NCBI GenBank assembly: GCA_015655015.1
Contig: JAATFV010000211.1
Location: forward strand, 1 to 64,000
DNA from: Chitinophagales bacterium
Lineage (GTDB): Bacteria; Bacteroidota; Bacteroidia; Chitinophagales; Chitinophagaceae
DNA length: 64,000 nt
Direction: 5' to 3'
Shown: positions 513 to 26,651 of the stretch, piece by piece
Layout: each line of letters begins with the position of its first letter
Position numbering within the stretch: position 1 is the first letter of the stretch
Notes under the pieces: model-generated
The model's database searches: none
The model's input: only the letters and a program-made list of their open reading frames with translations
What the model was told of the DNA's origin: nothing
Made by a program: the position numbers and the translations under genes

Positions 513-1679
513 TCAAAACAATTTCATCTGTCCTCCCGGCCGCATGAATTTCGTTGTATCCAGTTCCCAGCGTTCTGCATTCAACCCATATTTTTGGGTG
601 TAGCGGGCATATTGCTGGGCTACCAGCTGGGAGATATTCCCTTCCCCCCGCATGCGCACGCCCCAGCGGCTGTCATTGACCTTCCCGCCATGGCCGGATT
701 CGATAAGATGCCAGACTTTATCCGCCCTGTCCGGGAAATTCTTGTACAGCCAGTCATGAAAGATCAGCTTGATAGCGCCATTGAGACGGATAAAGGTATA
801 GGCAGAGAAGGTAGCTCCATTCTCTGCAGCGGCTTTCATGATCCGTTGCAGCTCATGTTCATTGAGTCCGGGGATCATGGGACCGAGCATGACGCCCATG
901 CGTACGCCGGCTTCACTCAGGTCCTTAATAGTGCGCAGCCTTTGCTTAGCGGTAGTCGTGCGGGGTTCCATCACCCTTCTTAATTCTTCGTCGAAGGACG
1001 TGATCGATACAAGGATGGATACCAGATGCTTCTCCGCCATTTTAGCGAGAAGGTCTTTATCGCGGAGGATACCGGCATTCTTGGTGATTATTCCCACAGG
1101 CTGGTTGAATTCCAGGCAGACTTCCAGCAGCTGCCGGGTGATGCCGAATTTTTTTTCAGCGGGCTGATAACAGTCTGTATTCCCGCTGAGGGAAATAGGC
1201 ACCGATTCCCATTTAGGGTTCATCAGGAATTTCCGCAAGAGGTCCGGGGCATTTTTTTTCACGATGATCTTTCTTTCGAAGTCGAGGCCGGCGCTATATC
1301 CCCAATATTCATGAACGTTACGGGCATAACAGTAGGTGCAGCCATGCTCGCAGCCCTGGTAAGGATTCATGCTGTACGACATGCCTACATCCGGGCTGTC
1401 TACCTTATTGACGATCCCCTTTGCATTTTCTTCCAGGTATTCCGTTTCGGTATTGGGCTCGATCCAGTCATCGATCGCTTCGATATGCTCTTTCACCGTT
1501 TCATTTTTGAGAAACCTGTTCTTGGGATTGTATTGGGCGCCGCGGCCTTTAAGGTATTGAACACCGCCGGCTACTCCGTTGACTAAAGGGGAAGCAGGAA
1601 GCCCGATGTCGGACTGCAGGATCTCTTTATTTCGTTGGGATGAAGCAGCAGGATGCCCATCCTTATTGTATTCAGGCAT
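513..1679 (-). CDS. PA0069-type (SplB-like) radical SAM protein
   Basis: This 388-residue protein carries the radical SAM [4Fe-4S] motif CxxxCxxC as GCEHGCTYCYAR, with Cys110, Cys114 and Cys117. Downstream are typical barrel segments (SLSGNTDCYQP, ITKNAGILRDKD, MLGPMIPGLNEHE). Sequence and length fit the PA0069/Rv2578c branch of COG1533, relatives of spore photoproduct lyase whose substrate is unknown. It is the last gene of a leftward cluster, 27 bp after the second 2H-phosphoesterase-like gene, and that cluster is divergent from umuDC. The context hints at nucleic-acid damage processing, but this is inference. The motif Cys residues are all present, so the iron-sulfur cluster should form. 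Family assignment is firm; function is not. Confidence 0.85.
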   Translation of the reverse strand: MPEYNKDGHPAASSQRNKEILQSDIGLPASPLVNGVAGGVQYLKGRGAQYNPKNRFLKNETVKEHIEAIDDWIEPNTETEYLEENAKGIVNKVDSPDVGMSYSMNPYQGCEHGCTYCYARNVHEYWGYSAGLDFERKIIVKKNAPDLLRKFLMNPKWESVPISLSGNTDCYQPAEKKFGITRQLLEVCLEFNQPVGIITKNAGILRDKDLLAKMAEKHLVSILVSITSFDEELRRVMEPRTTTAKQRLRTIKDLSEAGVRMGVMLGPMIPGLNEHELQRIMKAAAENGATFSAYTFIRLNGAIKLIFHDWLYKNFPDRADKVWHLIESGHGGKVNDSRWGVRMRGEGNISQLVAQQYARYTQKYGLNAERWELDTTKFMRPGGQMKLF

Positions 1680-1706
1680 AATAGTTCATTTTCAAAAGCC
1701 CTCTGC

Positions 1707-2375
1707 TTACGCAAATAATTCTCCCTGCCGGATGGCTACCGGCAGGTTCTGAAAAGCAAAACGTTCCACGATCTGCCAGGCTTTATCGCCCTGGCGGCGT
1801 TTCAGCAGGAGCATGCTGTCGGCGATGAAGCGGCCGGTAAAGCTTTTATGGCTATATTCCAGCCATCCTTTCTCATACTGCCAGGGCAGTAATTTACGGG
1901 CAATGGTAAGATTCGGCTCATCGATAAAATGCGGCTTATGGTCCTTATCCAGCTTCATCAGCCTTTGTATTTCCCGGACTTCCTTTACCAGGCCCCGGAC
2001 AGGCAATTTGCTGGTCACATTGATAAAAATGGAATGGGTAGGAAAGCTGCCAAAATCTTTCAATTCCACTTTAAAAGGACAATATCCCATGGCAATCGTC
2101 CGGAGCCGGCTGACGATGCGCTCTTCCATCAGGGCCAGCTGGGTGAATGTCACCAGGGTCAGACGGGGCTTGCCCCCAATGCCCATGGGGATCTCGTAAG
2201 CTTCATTGAAGTCCTTTCGAACCTGTCCGATCCTGTTGCTCAATTCCTCATGGGGACTCAGGACCAGCAGGTATTCATTCGTTGACAGCTGCTTTTTGTA
2301 GTTTTCATGAAAGGTCTGGGAGATGGGTGCAATAGCTTGTTTCATAAAAATTTCTATTGATAGTTGGTAATACAT
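1707..2375 (-). CDS. 2'-5' RNA ligase family protein, both 2H motifs altered
   Basis: The 222-residue product has the LigT/2H-phosphoesterase layout: a strand reading RLTLVTF (residues 71-77), a central PTHSIFINV strand, and a second motif NLTIAR (155-160). Active 2H enzymes have HxT or HxS at both places. Here the first His is Arg71 and the second is Asn155, so catalysis is unlikely. It may be a binding protein or a relic. Its start shares one base with the stop of the upstream paralogue (TGATG on the minus strand), which suggests translational coupling. An internal ATG at 2345 is an alternative start that would remove ten residues. The two neighbouring 2H-like genes look like diverged duplicates. 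Confidence 0.75.
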   Translation of the reverse strand: MYYQLSIEIFMKQAIAPISQTFHENYKKQLSTNEYLLVLSPHEELSNRIGQVRKDFNEAYEIPMGIGGKPRLTLVTFTQLALMEERIVSRLRTIAMGYCPFKVELKDFGSFPTHSIFINVTSKLPVRGLVKEVREIQRLMKLDKDHKPHFIDEPNLTIARKLLPWQYEKGWLEYSHKSFTGRFIADSMLLLKRRQGDKAWQIVERFAFQNLPVAIRQGELFA

Positions 2376-3016
2376 CAGGCCGGTAAAGTACAGGGCTGCT
2401 GCGTATCCGGCAGCAAGCGGAATATATTCACAGTCTTACAGGGATCGAAGGAATGTTCCCTTTTCAGCAATACCAGCTCATCCACTCCGAAGGATCCATG
2501 AAAAGTCCTCCGGGAATAATCAGGCATTGCCTTATTGTATACCTGTTCCGTCAGACCACCGGCAATGCTAAGGAAAGGCCGGTTGATAAGATTGACAGGG
2601 GGACAGCCCGAGGAACGGATAAAATCATCGATGGCTCTCAATTGCTGCATCAATTGCCGGAATGGCTGAGGGTCCAGCACACGCAGGTAAATGGTATGCG
2701 GGGGAAAGCCGCTGTAATTGTTAAGCGTTATTTCAAAGCTTTTGTGCCGGTTGCAGATGCGCTGTATCCACCGGATCAGGGTGTCTTCCACCACTTCCCC
2801 TGCCTGAAAGGCGGCCACGGTGATATGAGGCTTGTTGCGGACGGAGGACGACAGGCCATAATCGCTGGAGAACTGTTGCTGTTCATCCAGCAGCTTATCA
2901 CGCAGGTCCCCGGTCGGATAGATGACGAGCAGGTATTCCACCCGCCGTTCCCGCTCTCCGGAAGCTGGTCCCCGAGAAAGGGTAAATGGAGATTGTTTTA
3001 CTAACCCGGTATCCAT
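2375..3016 (-). CDS. 2'-5' RNA ligase family protein, one 2H motif altered
   Basis: This 213-residue 2H-phosphoesterase-like protein keeps the first catalytic motif as HIT (His64-Ile-Thr66, in NKPHITVAAF). The second motif reads FLS (Phe148-Leu-Ser150, in NRPFLSIAGG) instead of HxT/S, so one of the two histidines is missing. A PPHTIYLRV strand lies between them, as in the downstream paralogue. It is the first gene of the leftward cluster and starts 116 bp from umuD, so the two cluster promoters must share that AT-rich gap. Known family members act on 2',3'-cyclic or 2'-5' phosphodiester bonds in RNA. With one His lost, activity here is doubtful. Confidence 0.75.
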   Translation of the reverse strand: MDTGLVKQSPFTLSRGPASGERERRVEYLLVIYPTGDLRDKLLDEQQQFSSDYGLSSSVRNKPHITVAAFQAGEVVEDTLIRWIQRICNRHKSFEITLNNYSGFPPHTIYLRVLDPQPFRQLMQQLRAIDDFIRSSGCPPVNLINRPFLSIAGGLTEQVYNKAMPDYSRRTFHGSFGVDELVLLKREHSFDPCKTVNIFRLLPDTQQPCTLPA

Positions 3017-3053: not shown

Positions 3054-3108
3054 TACTAAATTAATTAGTATTTTAAATATTTATTTTTCTCCCGCTTTTA
3101 ATGGGAGC
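3054..3108. promoter_or_regulatory. palindromes in the divergent umuD / 2H-gene promoter region
   Basis: The 116-bp gap holds an inverted repeat tactaa-attaa-ttagta (3054-3070), a 10-bp perfect palindrome taaatattta (3074-3083) and a ctccc/gggag hairpin (about 3090-3108). A TAAATTTT box resembling the Bacteroidota -7 element lies about 8 bp before the umuD ATG. A damage-responsive operator is plausible, but no known LexA box is recognised. Confidence 0.35.
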
Positions 3109-3132: not shown

Positions 3133-3567
3133 ATGGAGCTCGAACAATTTTCCGGCATCAACTATAAGGGTAGCAAGCGTTTTACCCAGTGGGACATTCC
3201 TACCGCCAATGCGACCGGCTTTGGCGCCGCTGCGGATGATTACATGGAAAGAGGGATCGATCTGAACGAGCAGCTGGTCCGGAATAAACCGGCTACATTC
3301 TTTATGCGGGTGACCGGAGATGCCATGACCGGGGCCGGCATTTTCAATGGAGATGTGGTGATCGTGGACCGTTCTGTCAAAGCGGCAAATGGTAAGGTGA
3401 TCATCGCCATTCTGAATGGAGAAATGCTGATCCGCCGGTTTGAGAAAAATTTCAATAAGATCCGGCTGGTGCCCGAAACTCCCAAATTATCACCCATCGA
3501 TATCGATCTCTCCGGCTCTGAATTTTCCATCTGGGGGGTGGTGACTTATGTAATTCATAGTCTATGA
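3133..3567 (+). CDS. umuD: UmuD-like S24 protein without the catalytic dyad
   Basis: The 144-residue product aligns with UmuD, the accessory subunit of translesion polymerase V. The arm TGFGAAADDYMERGIDLNEQ matches the E. coli arm that begins at the Cys24-Gly25 cleavage site. The S24 core (GDAMTGAGIFNGDVVIVDR) and the C-terminal WGVVTYVIHSL are also clear. The catalytic Ser of GDSM is Ala64, and the general-base Lys is Arg101 in GEMLIRRF. The spacings 28-64-101 equal E. coli 24-60-97, so the alignment is unambiguous, and self-cleavage should be impossible by the known mechanism. The stop overlaps the umuC start (ATGA), so the pair is co-translated. It probably acts as a fixed, uncleaved UmuC partner. 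Confidence 0.88.
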   Translation: MELEQFSGINYKGSKRFTQWDIPTANATGFGAAADDYMERGIDLNEQLVRNKPATFFMRVTGDAMTGAGIFNGDVVIVDRSVKAANGKVIIAILNGEMLIRRFEKNFNKIRLVPETPKLSPIDIDLSGSEFSIWGVVTYVIHSL

Positions 3568-4868
3568 ACGCGATCGTCGACTGCAATAGCTTCTATTGCT
3601 CCTGCGAGCGGGTATTCCGGGCCGATCTCCGCGACAAGCCTGTCGTGGTGCTCAGCAATAACGACGGCTGTATCATCTCCCGCAGCGATGAGGCCAGGCA
3701 ACTGGGAGTAGGAATGGCGATCCCTTATTTCCAGGCCAGGCATATCATTGAAAAGAATGGCATCGCCGTATTTTCGTCCAACTATCATTTATATGGCGAT
3801 ATGAGCCGGCGGGTGATGGATACCTTACGGGTACTGGCAGGAGAAGAAGCCGGGGAGAAAGATGCCCCCGCCAGGGTCGAGGTCTACTCCGTCGACGAAG
3901 CCTTTATGGATCTCAGCGCTATTCCTCCGGGTGAGCTCGCCGGCCATGCAAAACATATCAAGGACACGGTGGAACAATGGACCGGCATCTCCGTCTCCAT
4001 CGGAGTGGCCCCTACCAAGACCCTGGCCAAGCTGGCCAATATCATGGCCAAAAAGAATAAAAAAGCTTCGGGATGTGTCATGGTGCTGGCAACGGAAGAG
4101 GAGCAAAGGCTGGCCCTGCAGCAGACAAGGGTAGATCACCTCTGGGGCGTAGGCCGGGCCTATGCCGCCAAGCTGATCAACTGGGGCATCACCAGCGCCT
4201 GGGAGCTGCGGAATATGCCGGAAGAATGGGCCCATACCAATATGGGGGGAGTAGTAGGGGTACGGCTGATCCGGGAGCTGCGGGGAATACCGGCTATCGT
4301 CATGGAAGAGGAGCTGGTCAATAAAAAAATGATTGCCACCACCCGTATGTTCGGCCGTCCCGTCACAGCCGTACAGGAGCTAAAAGAAGCCGTTGCCACG
4401 TATATTTCACGAGCCGCCGAGAAGCTGCGCCGGCAGGAAAGCGCCGCTAAGGTAGTCAGTGTATTCATCGTGTCGAAAGAAGAGGATCATTTAGCGGATT
4501 TCAAACGAGGCGCTACCATCAGCAATTATACCACCTTACCCAAAGCCACTTCGCTGACGCACGAACTGATAAAATCCGCGGTAGAGCTGGTGGAACAGCT
4601 TTATGAGAACGGAAAAGAGTATAAAAAAGCCGGGGTGATGTTAAGCAGCCTGGTGCCGGATGACTCCATACAGGGCAATTTATTCATCCCGCCCGCTGAA
4701 AATCAGCACCGCTTCTTAATGAACACCATCGACAATATCAATTTCAGCATGCGGGACGATAGCGTTAAATTCGGTTCTTCAGGGATGGCCAAGAACTGGA
4801 AGATGAGGCAGGAGCTCCGGTCGAAGAGGCATAGCTCCCGCTGGGAGGAGCTGAAGGAGATTAGATAA
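3564..4868 (+). CDS. umuC: UmuC-like Y-family DNA polymerase V catalytic subunit
   Basis: The 434-residue Y-family polymerase would copy past damaged template bases. The palm carries Asp6 in VDCNSFYCSCE and the Asp111-Glu112 pair in YSVDEAFMDL, so the metal-binding acidic residues are intact. A helix-hairpin-helix thumb (WGVGRAYAAKL) and little-finger domain follow. QGNLF near residue 370 matches the beta-clamp-binding peptide QLNLF of E. coli UmuC. A short acidic insertion (GEEAGEKD, about residues 93-100) precedes the catalytic pair. The gene overlaps umuD by 4 bp. The polymerase looks fully functional even though its UmuD partner lacks protease residues. Confidence 0.93.
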   Translation: MNAIVDCNSFYCSCERVFRADLRDKPVVVLSNNDGCIISRSDEARQLGVGMAIPYFQARHIIEKNGIAVFSSNYHLYGDMSRRVMDTLRVLAGEEAGEKDAPARVEVYSVDEAFMDLSAIPPGELAGHAKHIKDTVEQWTGISVSIGVAPTKTLAKLANIMAKKNKKASGCVMVLATEEEQRLALQQTRVDHLWGVGRAYAAKLINWGITSAWELRNMPEEWAHTNMGGVVGVRLIRELRGIPAIVMEEELVNKKMIATTRMFGRPVTAVQELKEAVATYISRAAEKLRRQESAAKVVSVFIVSKEEDHLADFKRGATISNYTTLPKATSLTHELIKSAVELVEQLYENGKEYKKAGVMLSSLVPDDSIQGNLFIPPAENQHRFLMNTIDNINFSMRDDSVKFGSSGMAKNWKMRQELRSKRHSSRWEELKEIR

Positions 4869-26600: not shown

Positions 26601-26614
26601 AGTCATTATACTAA

Positions 26615-26622
26615 CAAAGTTA
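26615..26622 (-). promoter_or_regulatory. -7 element TAACTTTG for the DUF763 gene
   Basis: Minus-strand TAACTTTG matches TAnnTTTG, 14 bp before the chosen ATG. It lies inside a small inverted repeat ctaac-aaa-gttag. Confidence 0.45.
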
Positions 26623-26651
26623 GCAAATTGAGGCCGGATAAACAACGCCGC

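Follow-up and report, generated by a model that had tools for sequence, protein, structure and literature searches.

In the textbook account, UmuD self-cleavage acts as a timer that holds back mutagenic synthesis following DNA damage. A locus in the genome of a Chitinophagales bacterium raises the question of how DNA polymerase V might be governed where that timer appears to have been dismantled. In the window, the 64,000-nucleotide stretch of DNA analysed here, a umuD gene encoding 144 amino acids (3133..3567, + strand) overlaps by 4 bp, in the operon arrangement characteristic of UmuD, a umuC gene encoding a Y-family polymerase of 434 amino acids (3564..4868, +; PF00817, PF11799, PF13438). 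The polymerase looks intact, and its accessory subunit is without the residues with which UmuD cuts itself.

The kinship of this UmuD is clear from its open reading frame, from a Peptidase_S24 match (PF00717, 88.1 bits, exceeding the cut-off), from the NCBI model NF007621 (129.7 bits against a cut-off of 110, denoting an S24-type core homologous to UmuD′), and from phmmer alignment with the E. coli UmuD and UmuD′ chains (best E 1.1e-20). In that alignment GDAM stands opposite GDSM, and IRR opposite VKK (VAK in chain 8gmt_B). With Cys24, Ser60 and Lys97 taken as the E. coli reference positions, Ala64 (GCC, 3322..3324, +) occupies the place of the nucleophilic Ser, Arg101 (CGC, 3433..3435, +) that of the catalytic Lys, and Thr28-Gly29 (3214..3219, +) the former scissile position, at spacings of 36 and 37 residues that equal those of E. 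coli. The number Ser60 is also given in PMC3901139. Both the substitutions and the spacings had been put forward in the original prediction, and the DNA reading and the alignment bear them out. An Ala and Arg pair is unable to act like a Ser-Lys dyad, the hallmark of UmuD and of active S24 peptidases alike; self-cleavage, including the RecA-stimulated reaction that the prediction had excluded, is therefore not expected of this protein.

This state is not an accident of one sequence. A collection of 337 UmuD-like loci yielded 293 different proteins, whose Ser and Lys columns read Ala-Arg in 164, Ser-Lys in 94 (hereafter canonical), Ser-Arg in 26, Asn-Arg in three, Cys-Arg in three, Thr-Arg in two and Ser-Asn in one. 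In a FastTree phylogeny of the UmuD core (292 rows and 113 columns, the two trait columns excluded, with 115 of 288 inner branches open), 188 of the 198 Arg proteins form a single clade with SH-like support of 99. This Arg clade, comprising 188 different proteins from 232 loci, is what we term R-type; L002, which has no UmuD match, was left out of all counts, and L111, in which a stop breaks the frame and the dyad columns read Ser and Asn, out of the tree and both classes. Within the clade, Arg is invariant at the Lys column (188/188), while the Ser column holds Ala in 161, Ser in 22, Thr in two, Asn in two and Cys in one; for the 22 Ser-keeping proteins the expected loss of cleavage follows from the Arg by itself. 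The original prediction had proposed this very count, and had named a sequencing error restoring GDSM as a possible refutation, which is ruled out by 188 different relatives sharing the Arg. A pN/pS of 0.14 for UmuD, over 78 pairs of 13 close relatives, likewise argues against a decaying pseudogene. Nothing was found in favour of error or decay, both were rejected, and we assign them a negligible probability. As read from the alignments, the loss of the dyad is real, the product of neither chance nor base error, and is confirmed as a fixed character of a clade that fills the Chitinophagaceae.

The extent of the clade was gauged by searches that were not biased to R-type and covered only genomes at least 90% complete. 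Among 394 Chitinophagaceae genomes, 252 had a UmuD match, and 214 of these are R-type by score (E <= 3.6e-33, the other 38 lying at E > 1e-30); the 60 weakest of the 214 were read individually and all proved R-type, as by sequence did one of the 38 weaker matches (G126). Some genomes of the family retain a second, canonical UmuD. A class-wide search of 396 genomes found a UmuD match in 91, with ten at E <= 1.6e-48, all of them Chitinophagaceae. Fifty-nine UmuD-like proteins were read from other families, and 58 carry Ser and Lys, the remaining one (L332) Cys and Arg. Score alone is insufficient outside the Chitinophagaceae, since G519 and G512 reach 6.6e-35 and 2.3e-34 despite intact Ser and Lys, and another sample of relatives (80 of 287) favours R-type because its search patterns were derived from the query. 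No match of at least 60% identity was found among the 5000 best-scoring plasmid records, 84 phage records or viral contigs (best 49%, among 80 of 105 relatives), and a mobile origin was rejected on the matches examined. A search of titles and abstract openings, with subscription journals and preprints outside its scope, returned no report of a UmuD clade that naturally lacks the dyad; PMC8565304 alone was found to combine Chitinophagaceae and UmuD, and the passages on the dyad consulted in it concern repressors.

Ten more divergent Arg proteins fall outside the R-type clade. The genes of seven (L251, L252, L253, L258, L213, L214, L112) start at the cut site, with openings such as MGFPS or MAFPS, and encode Arg for the catalytic Lys. 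Such starts, which leave a one-residue arm and depend on a script-chosen start codon, occur in seven of the ten outside-clade Arg proteins versus none of the 94 canonical ones. These genes look like natural pre-cut UmuD′ that lost the Lys separately from the R-type clade, in which case the dyad would have been lost in this group both with and without the arm. L218 and L332 have Cys at the nucleophile place and Arg for Lys, and both preserve Ala-Gly-Phe around the cut. They could conceivably represent a Cys peptidase variant.

In the R-type clade, the change extends from the dyad to its substrate. Thr precedes the cut in 164 of 188 R-type proteins, as in the window, where 92 of 94 canonical proteins have Ala, and the third residue after the cut is Gly in 155 of 188, where all 94 canonical proteins have Pro; the window protein thus departs from the Cys/Ala-Gly scissile bond of UmuD. 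Judged by these columns, the whole self-cutting apparatus, dyad plus scissile Ala-Gly-Phe-Pro, is altered together. The N-terminal arm that precedes this site (residues 1–28; 3133..3216, +) is a poorly conserved portion in canonical UmuD, where it is cut away. R-type arms carry the motif Y-x-G-[ST]-K-x-[FY]-x-Q ... A-[ND]-A-T, with the columns of 180 proteins holding Tyr11 in 94%, Gly13 in 96%, Lys15 in 93%, Gln19 in 97%, Ala27 in 98% and Thr28 in 91% (163/180). At core identities of 0.5–0.6 and 0.6–0.7, mean arm identity is 0.52 and 0.54 for R-type pairs versus 0.26 and 0.32 for canonical ones. At core identities of 0.7–0.9 the arms are alike (R-type 0.52 and 0.61, canonical 0.51 and 0.66), and at 0.3–0.4, where R-type pairs are few (31), the R-type arm is the lower (0.07 versus 0.18). 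Among the 13 close relatives, pN/pS is 0.23 in the arm versus 0.12 in the core, with synonymous sites near saturation. Residues 1–40 gave no Pfam match at E up to 10, a range in which the HMMER filters lose most very weak matches, and a YolD-like or YqjX-type arm was rejected on that result.

The partner polymerase retains what catalysis demands, as originally claimed. The catalytic Asp6 (3579..3581, +) is Asp in 124 of 125 R-type partners, with one gap, and Asp111-Glu112 (3894..3899, +) are Asp and Glu in all 125; the window protein also reads QGNLF at residues 370–374 (4671..4685, +), which we take to be a probable beta-clamp motif. Its Pfam IMS match is above the cut-off, and it scores 347 bits with the NCBI UmuC model, under that model's cut-off of 431. 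On these features the R-type partner UmuC appears active. The R-type partners form one clade (126 rows including the window, SH-like support 100), and differ from 73 canonical partners at nine positions, including 9, 12 and 110 close to the catalytic motifs, 262 and 284 beyond these, and 397 in the tail. At position 397, R-type partners have Arg in 116, Gly in four and Gln in two (the three commonest letters, in up to 125 proteins), versus Gly in 73 of 73 canonical partners. The tail of E. coli UmuC is described in PMC6511836 as the main site for UmuD′. Since the R-type partners form a single clade, shared ancestry may account for some of these differences.

A closer tie between the subunits emerges where UmuC is missing. 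By tblastn with a 250-nt rule, umuC adjoins R-type umuD in 128 of 188 loci (an earlier motif-based test undercounted, at 105 of 188, and was set aside); it lies slightly further downstream in 20, and for the remainder it is elsewhere in the genome or was not found. In eight loci (L015, L019, L030, L039, L166, L285, L288, L290) open reading frames that resemble one another lie between umuD and umuC, and to us look like a small Y1-type transposase. R-type UmuC was scored as present when it adjoined umuD (128 rows, of which 125 entered the UmuC tree), when it lay close by (20) or when a genome search detected it (26, at 54–68% identity, with canonical UmuC at 40–43% in the same searches), which makes 174 of the 187 cases that could be resolved. 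The other 13, orphan R-type UmuD loci, yielded no R-type UmuC (L185, L190, L231, L237, L241, L244, L245, L246, L247, L106, L070, L104, L078).

In a first set, nine genomes had no R-type UmuC that could be found, three of them having only a canonical-type UmuC, and their arms were broken or shortened, with motif scores of 1–5 out of 12; rows with R-type UmuC scored 8–12, except L243, whose arm runs past the contig end. Arm state was then used beforehand to predict UmuC in 13 undecided cases and was right in 10 of 12 searchable genomes, correctly naming G022 and G027 as without R-type UmuC and eight as having it. It failed for G011 (78% complete) and G804, which are without R-type UmuC though their arms scored intact. 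Under a stricter seven-site criterion, chosen after these two failures and registering a change in both genomes, the arm departs in 13 of 13 proteins that are without R-type UmuC versus 5 of the 172 that have it (Fisher p 2.8e-16, in a test that ignores relatedness and with absence calls resting on partly incomplete assemblies, as the 78% of G011 illustrates). Left out of this comparison are L243, L179, whose arm is masked as N, and L060, whose genome was unavailable; the parsimony count treats all three as UmuC present and finds nine changes of UmuC presence on the weakly resolved core tree. Departure at arm sites rises from 0.007 with UmuC to 0.56 without, and near-invariant core sites relax less, from 0.023 to 0.16. 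The arm departs where R-type UmuC is missing and the core less so, indicating that the arm is retained for a task that involves UmuC.

Between umuD and a divergent gene lies an exact match (3056..3068, +) to the palindrome CTAA-N5-TTAG, a predicted operator; this motif and the non-canonical LexA of Bacteroidetes are described in PMC8565304. The window holds two exact copies, the other at 26611–26623, against an expectation of 0.60; as many turn up in 13 of 100 shuffles, so that the count alone is weak. Genome-wide, a reversed control pattern outnumbers the motif (122 versus 40), and lone sites far from SOS genes accordingly mean little. Across relatives the signal is strong: of 186 R-type loci, 175 have an exact predicted operator in the 250 bp ahead of umuD, versus 0.7% of mononucleotide shuffles. 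So do 13 of 13 orphan R-type loci and 25 of the 94 canonical ones, of which 58 come from other families. In the genome of the window the motif also precedes recA (C170:34759), a Y-family gene (C95:22109) and a LexA-like gene (C12:94144). The original prediction had suggested looking for a second, active UmuD or LexA. Only two proteins in this genome (assembly 97% complete, 5.9% contamination) match PF00717, namely this UmuD and an XRE-S24 LexA-like protein; the first half of that suggestion thus came up empty within the assembly, and the second was borne out, with the LexA-like protein retaining Ala-Gly, GDSM and Lys and carrying the motif just ahead of its own start. These residues and SOS sites make the RecA–LexA switch look intact, with only the UmuD switch lost, and the LexA-like protein is predicted to be the repressor of these sites.

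The divergent gene that shares the operator encodes a 2′-5′ RNA ligase/2H-phosphoesterase-like protein (2375..3016, − strand; PF13563). Two such 2H genes and a radical-SAM gene, presumably SplB-like, occupy 513–3016 on the − strand across the operator from umuD. Of 177 R-type loci with 550 bp or more of upstream sequence, 133 have a divergent 2H neighbour, as do all 13 UmuC-less loci, and none of 94 canonical loci shows one within the available flanks; the 2H and radical-SAM genes form with umuD a conserved SOS cluster. The 2H gene was found in all 20 R-type genomes tried and, at E < 1e-15, in 11 of 33 canonical-only and 4 of 20 UmuD-less genomes, ten weaker matches (E 4e-12 to 3e-9) in the latter two groups being left uncounted. 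A dependence on R-type UmuD was rejected because these 15 of 53 genomes without it have the gene, which is hence linked to, and not dependent on, R-type UmuD.

The original prediction left it between a polymerase that is always licensed, one that uses another protein for cleavage and one that is kept inactive by full-length UmuD. Sequence alone fits all three; our preference is for a working, uncut subunit, with the remaining two readings as its rivals. In the ancestor of the R-type clade, UmuD self-cleavage would have been lost, with a fixed Arg replacing the catalytic Lys, Ala taking over most of the Ser column, and the cut site changing from Ala-Gly-Phe-Pro to Thr-Gly-Phe-Gly. The arm, formerly a removable lock, would have become a conserved element acting with a co-evolved UmuC, and probably lies on the polymerase as a component of the active assembly. 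Once proteolysis no longer licensed the polymerase, control would pass to transcription, with the non-canonical LexA leaving CTAA-N5-TTAG, and presumably to activation of the UmuD–UmuC complex by RecA. That polymerase V of the Chitinophagaceae works in this manner, with an uncut accessory subunit, the arm as a permanent UmuC-linked element, and control by transcription and RecA, seems to us somewhat better than an even proposition. There are structural precedents: PMC12926913 places the UmuD′ arm by modelling in the palm/little-finger cleft of UmuC and the uncut YqjX arms likewise in Gram-positive polymerases. In PMC5342242, non-cleavable E. coli UmuD 3A has full-length arms, and UmuD 18, like 3A, is proposed to be structurally similar to UmuD′. 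Against this reading, the arm evolves faster than the core in close relatives and shows no excess conservation at core identities of 0.7–0.9, two of the 12 UmuC predictions failed before the seven-site criterion was set, and the arm–UmuC link would hold equally if another protease cut the arm.

The main rival takes the uncut UmuD as a standing brake, its arm plugging UmuC until UmuD is removed (e.g., by Clp or Lon) or RecA intervenes, as likened to the E. coli UmuD2C complex in the damage checkpoint. It owes its rank to E. coli, where full-length UmuD prevents UmuC mutagenesis and the non-cleavable UmuD S60A, when combined with UmuC, reduces UV mutagenesis and heightens UV sensitivity (PMC3901139), so that an uncut R-type UmuD could be inhibitory; moreover, the ClpX signal sits in the UmuD arm (PMC5342242), and a conserved, UmuC-linked arm suits a plug as well as an activator. 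Yet a brake without a release of its own leaves UmuC useless unless some other release exists, and the catalytic residues kept in all 125 R-type UmuC proteins with a letter there imply that the polymerase is used at times. We consider the brake improbable, though the most credible of the alternatives.

Less probable still is cleavage by another protease at or near Thr28-Gly29, which would yield UmuD′ by a route other than self-cleavage. The conserved NATGF stretch, the decay of the arm upon UmuC loss, the second, canonical UmuD kept in some family genomes, and the ability of E. coli UmuD to cleave between subunits (PMC5342242) are consistent with it; however, the genome of the window yielded no second UmuD, a search covering the S24 family found no candidate, and the canonical Ala before and Pro after the cut are replaced in most R-type proteins. 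R-type UmuD might also be mainly a UmuC-independent SOS factor, acting with the divergent 2H gene, DinB or RecA, with its UmuC link secondary. The 13 UmuC-less genomes do keep the open reading frame, the exact operator and the 2H neighbour, but R-type UmuC accompanies R-type UmuD in the great majority of resolved cases, arm and core both depart more without it, and the 2H gene occurs without R-type UmuD; we hold this role to be quite unlikely.

Should the working, uncut subunit be right, the segment that others cut off is a permanent working part of polymerase V throughout the family. With the cut abandoned in most of its UmuD-bearing genomes, an apparently active UmuC retained and the arm rebuilt, the family offers a direct test of the purpose of the cut and of the sufficiency of transcription and RecA, with the UmuC-less genomes as ready comparisons. 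For the R-type group, the ‘autoproteolytic subunit’ of polymerase V in the NF007621 description misleads. The broader proposition, that the whole family runs polymerase V without a proteolytic licence, with the arm permanent as long as the matching UmuC is kept and an orphan SOS UmuD core left after UmuC loss, we judge to be evenly balanced.

Set beside known systems, R-type UmuD resembles E. coli UmuD in sequence (E ~1e-20), length, the operon with umuC, predicted SOS control and, presumably, its dimer; it differs in the absent Ser-Lys dyad, in Thr-Gly-Phe-Gly for Cys/Ala-Gly-Phe-Pro, in the new conserved arm motif and in the Arg of the UmuC tail. HumD and other pre-cut UmuD′ proteins need no self-cleavage step, and their genes start at the cleavage point; R-type UmuD, in contrast, keeps its 28-residue arm, and the HumD model gives the window protein 69.7 bits, under its cut-off of 120. 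For the engineered UmuD S60A and UmuD 3A self-cutting is impossible, as is expected of R-type; the arms of UmuD 3A stay at full length, and a reference title terms it a UmuD′ mimic (PMC3901139, PMC5342242). Unlike these constructs, the R-type state is natural and fixed across a family-filling clade, with the arm rebuilt and UmuC co-evolved. The YqjX/YolD subunits of Gram-positive Y-family polymerases offer an analogy, an uncut arm modelled inside the polymerase (PMC12926913), from a separate family. The non-canonical LexA of Bacteroidetes, finally, shares its regulon motif with R-type umuD but keeps the residues for self-cleavage.
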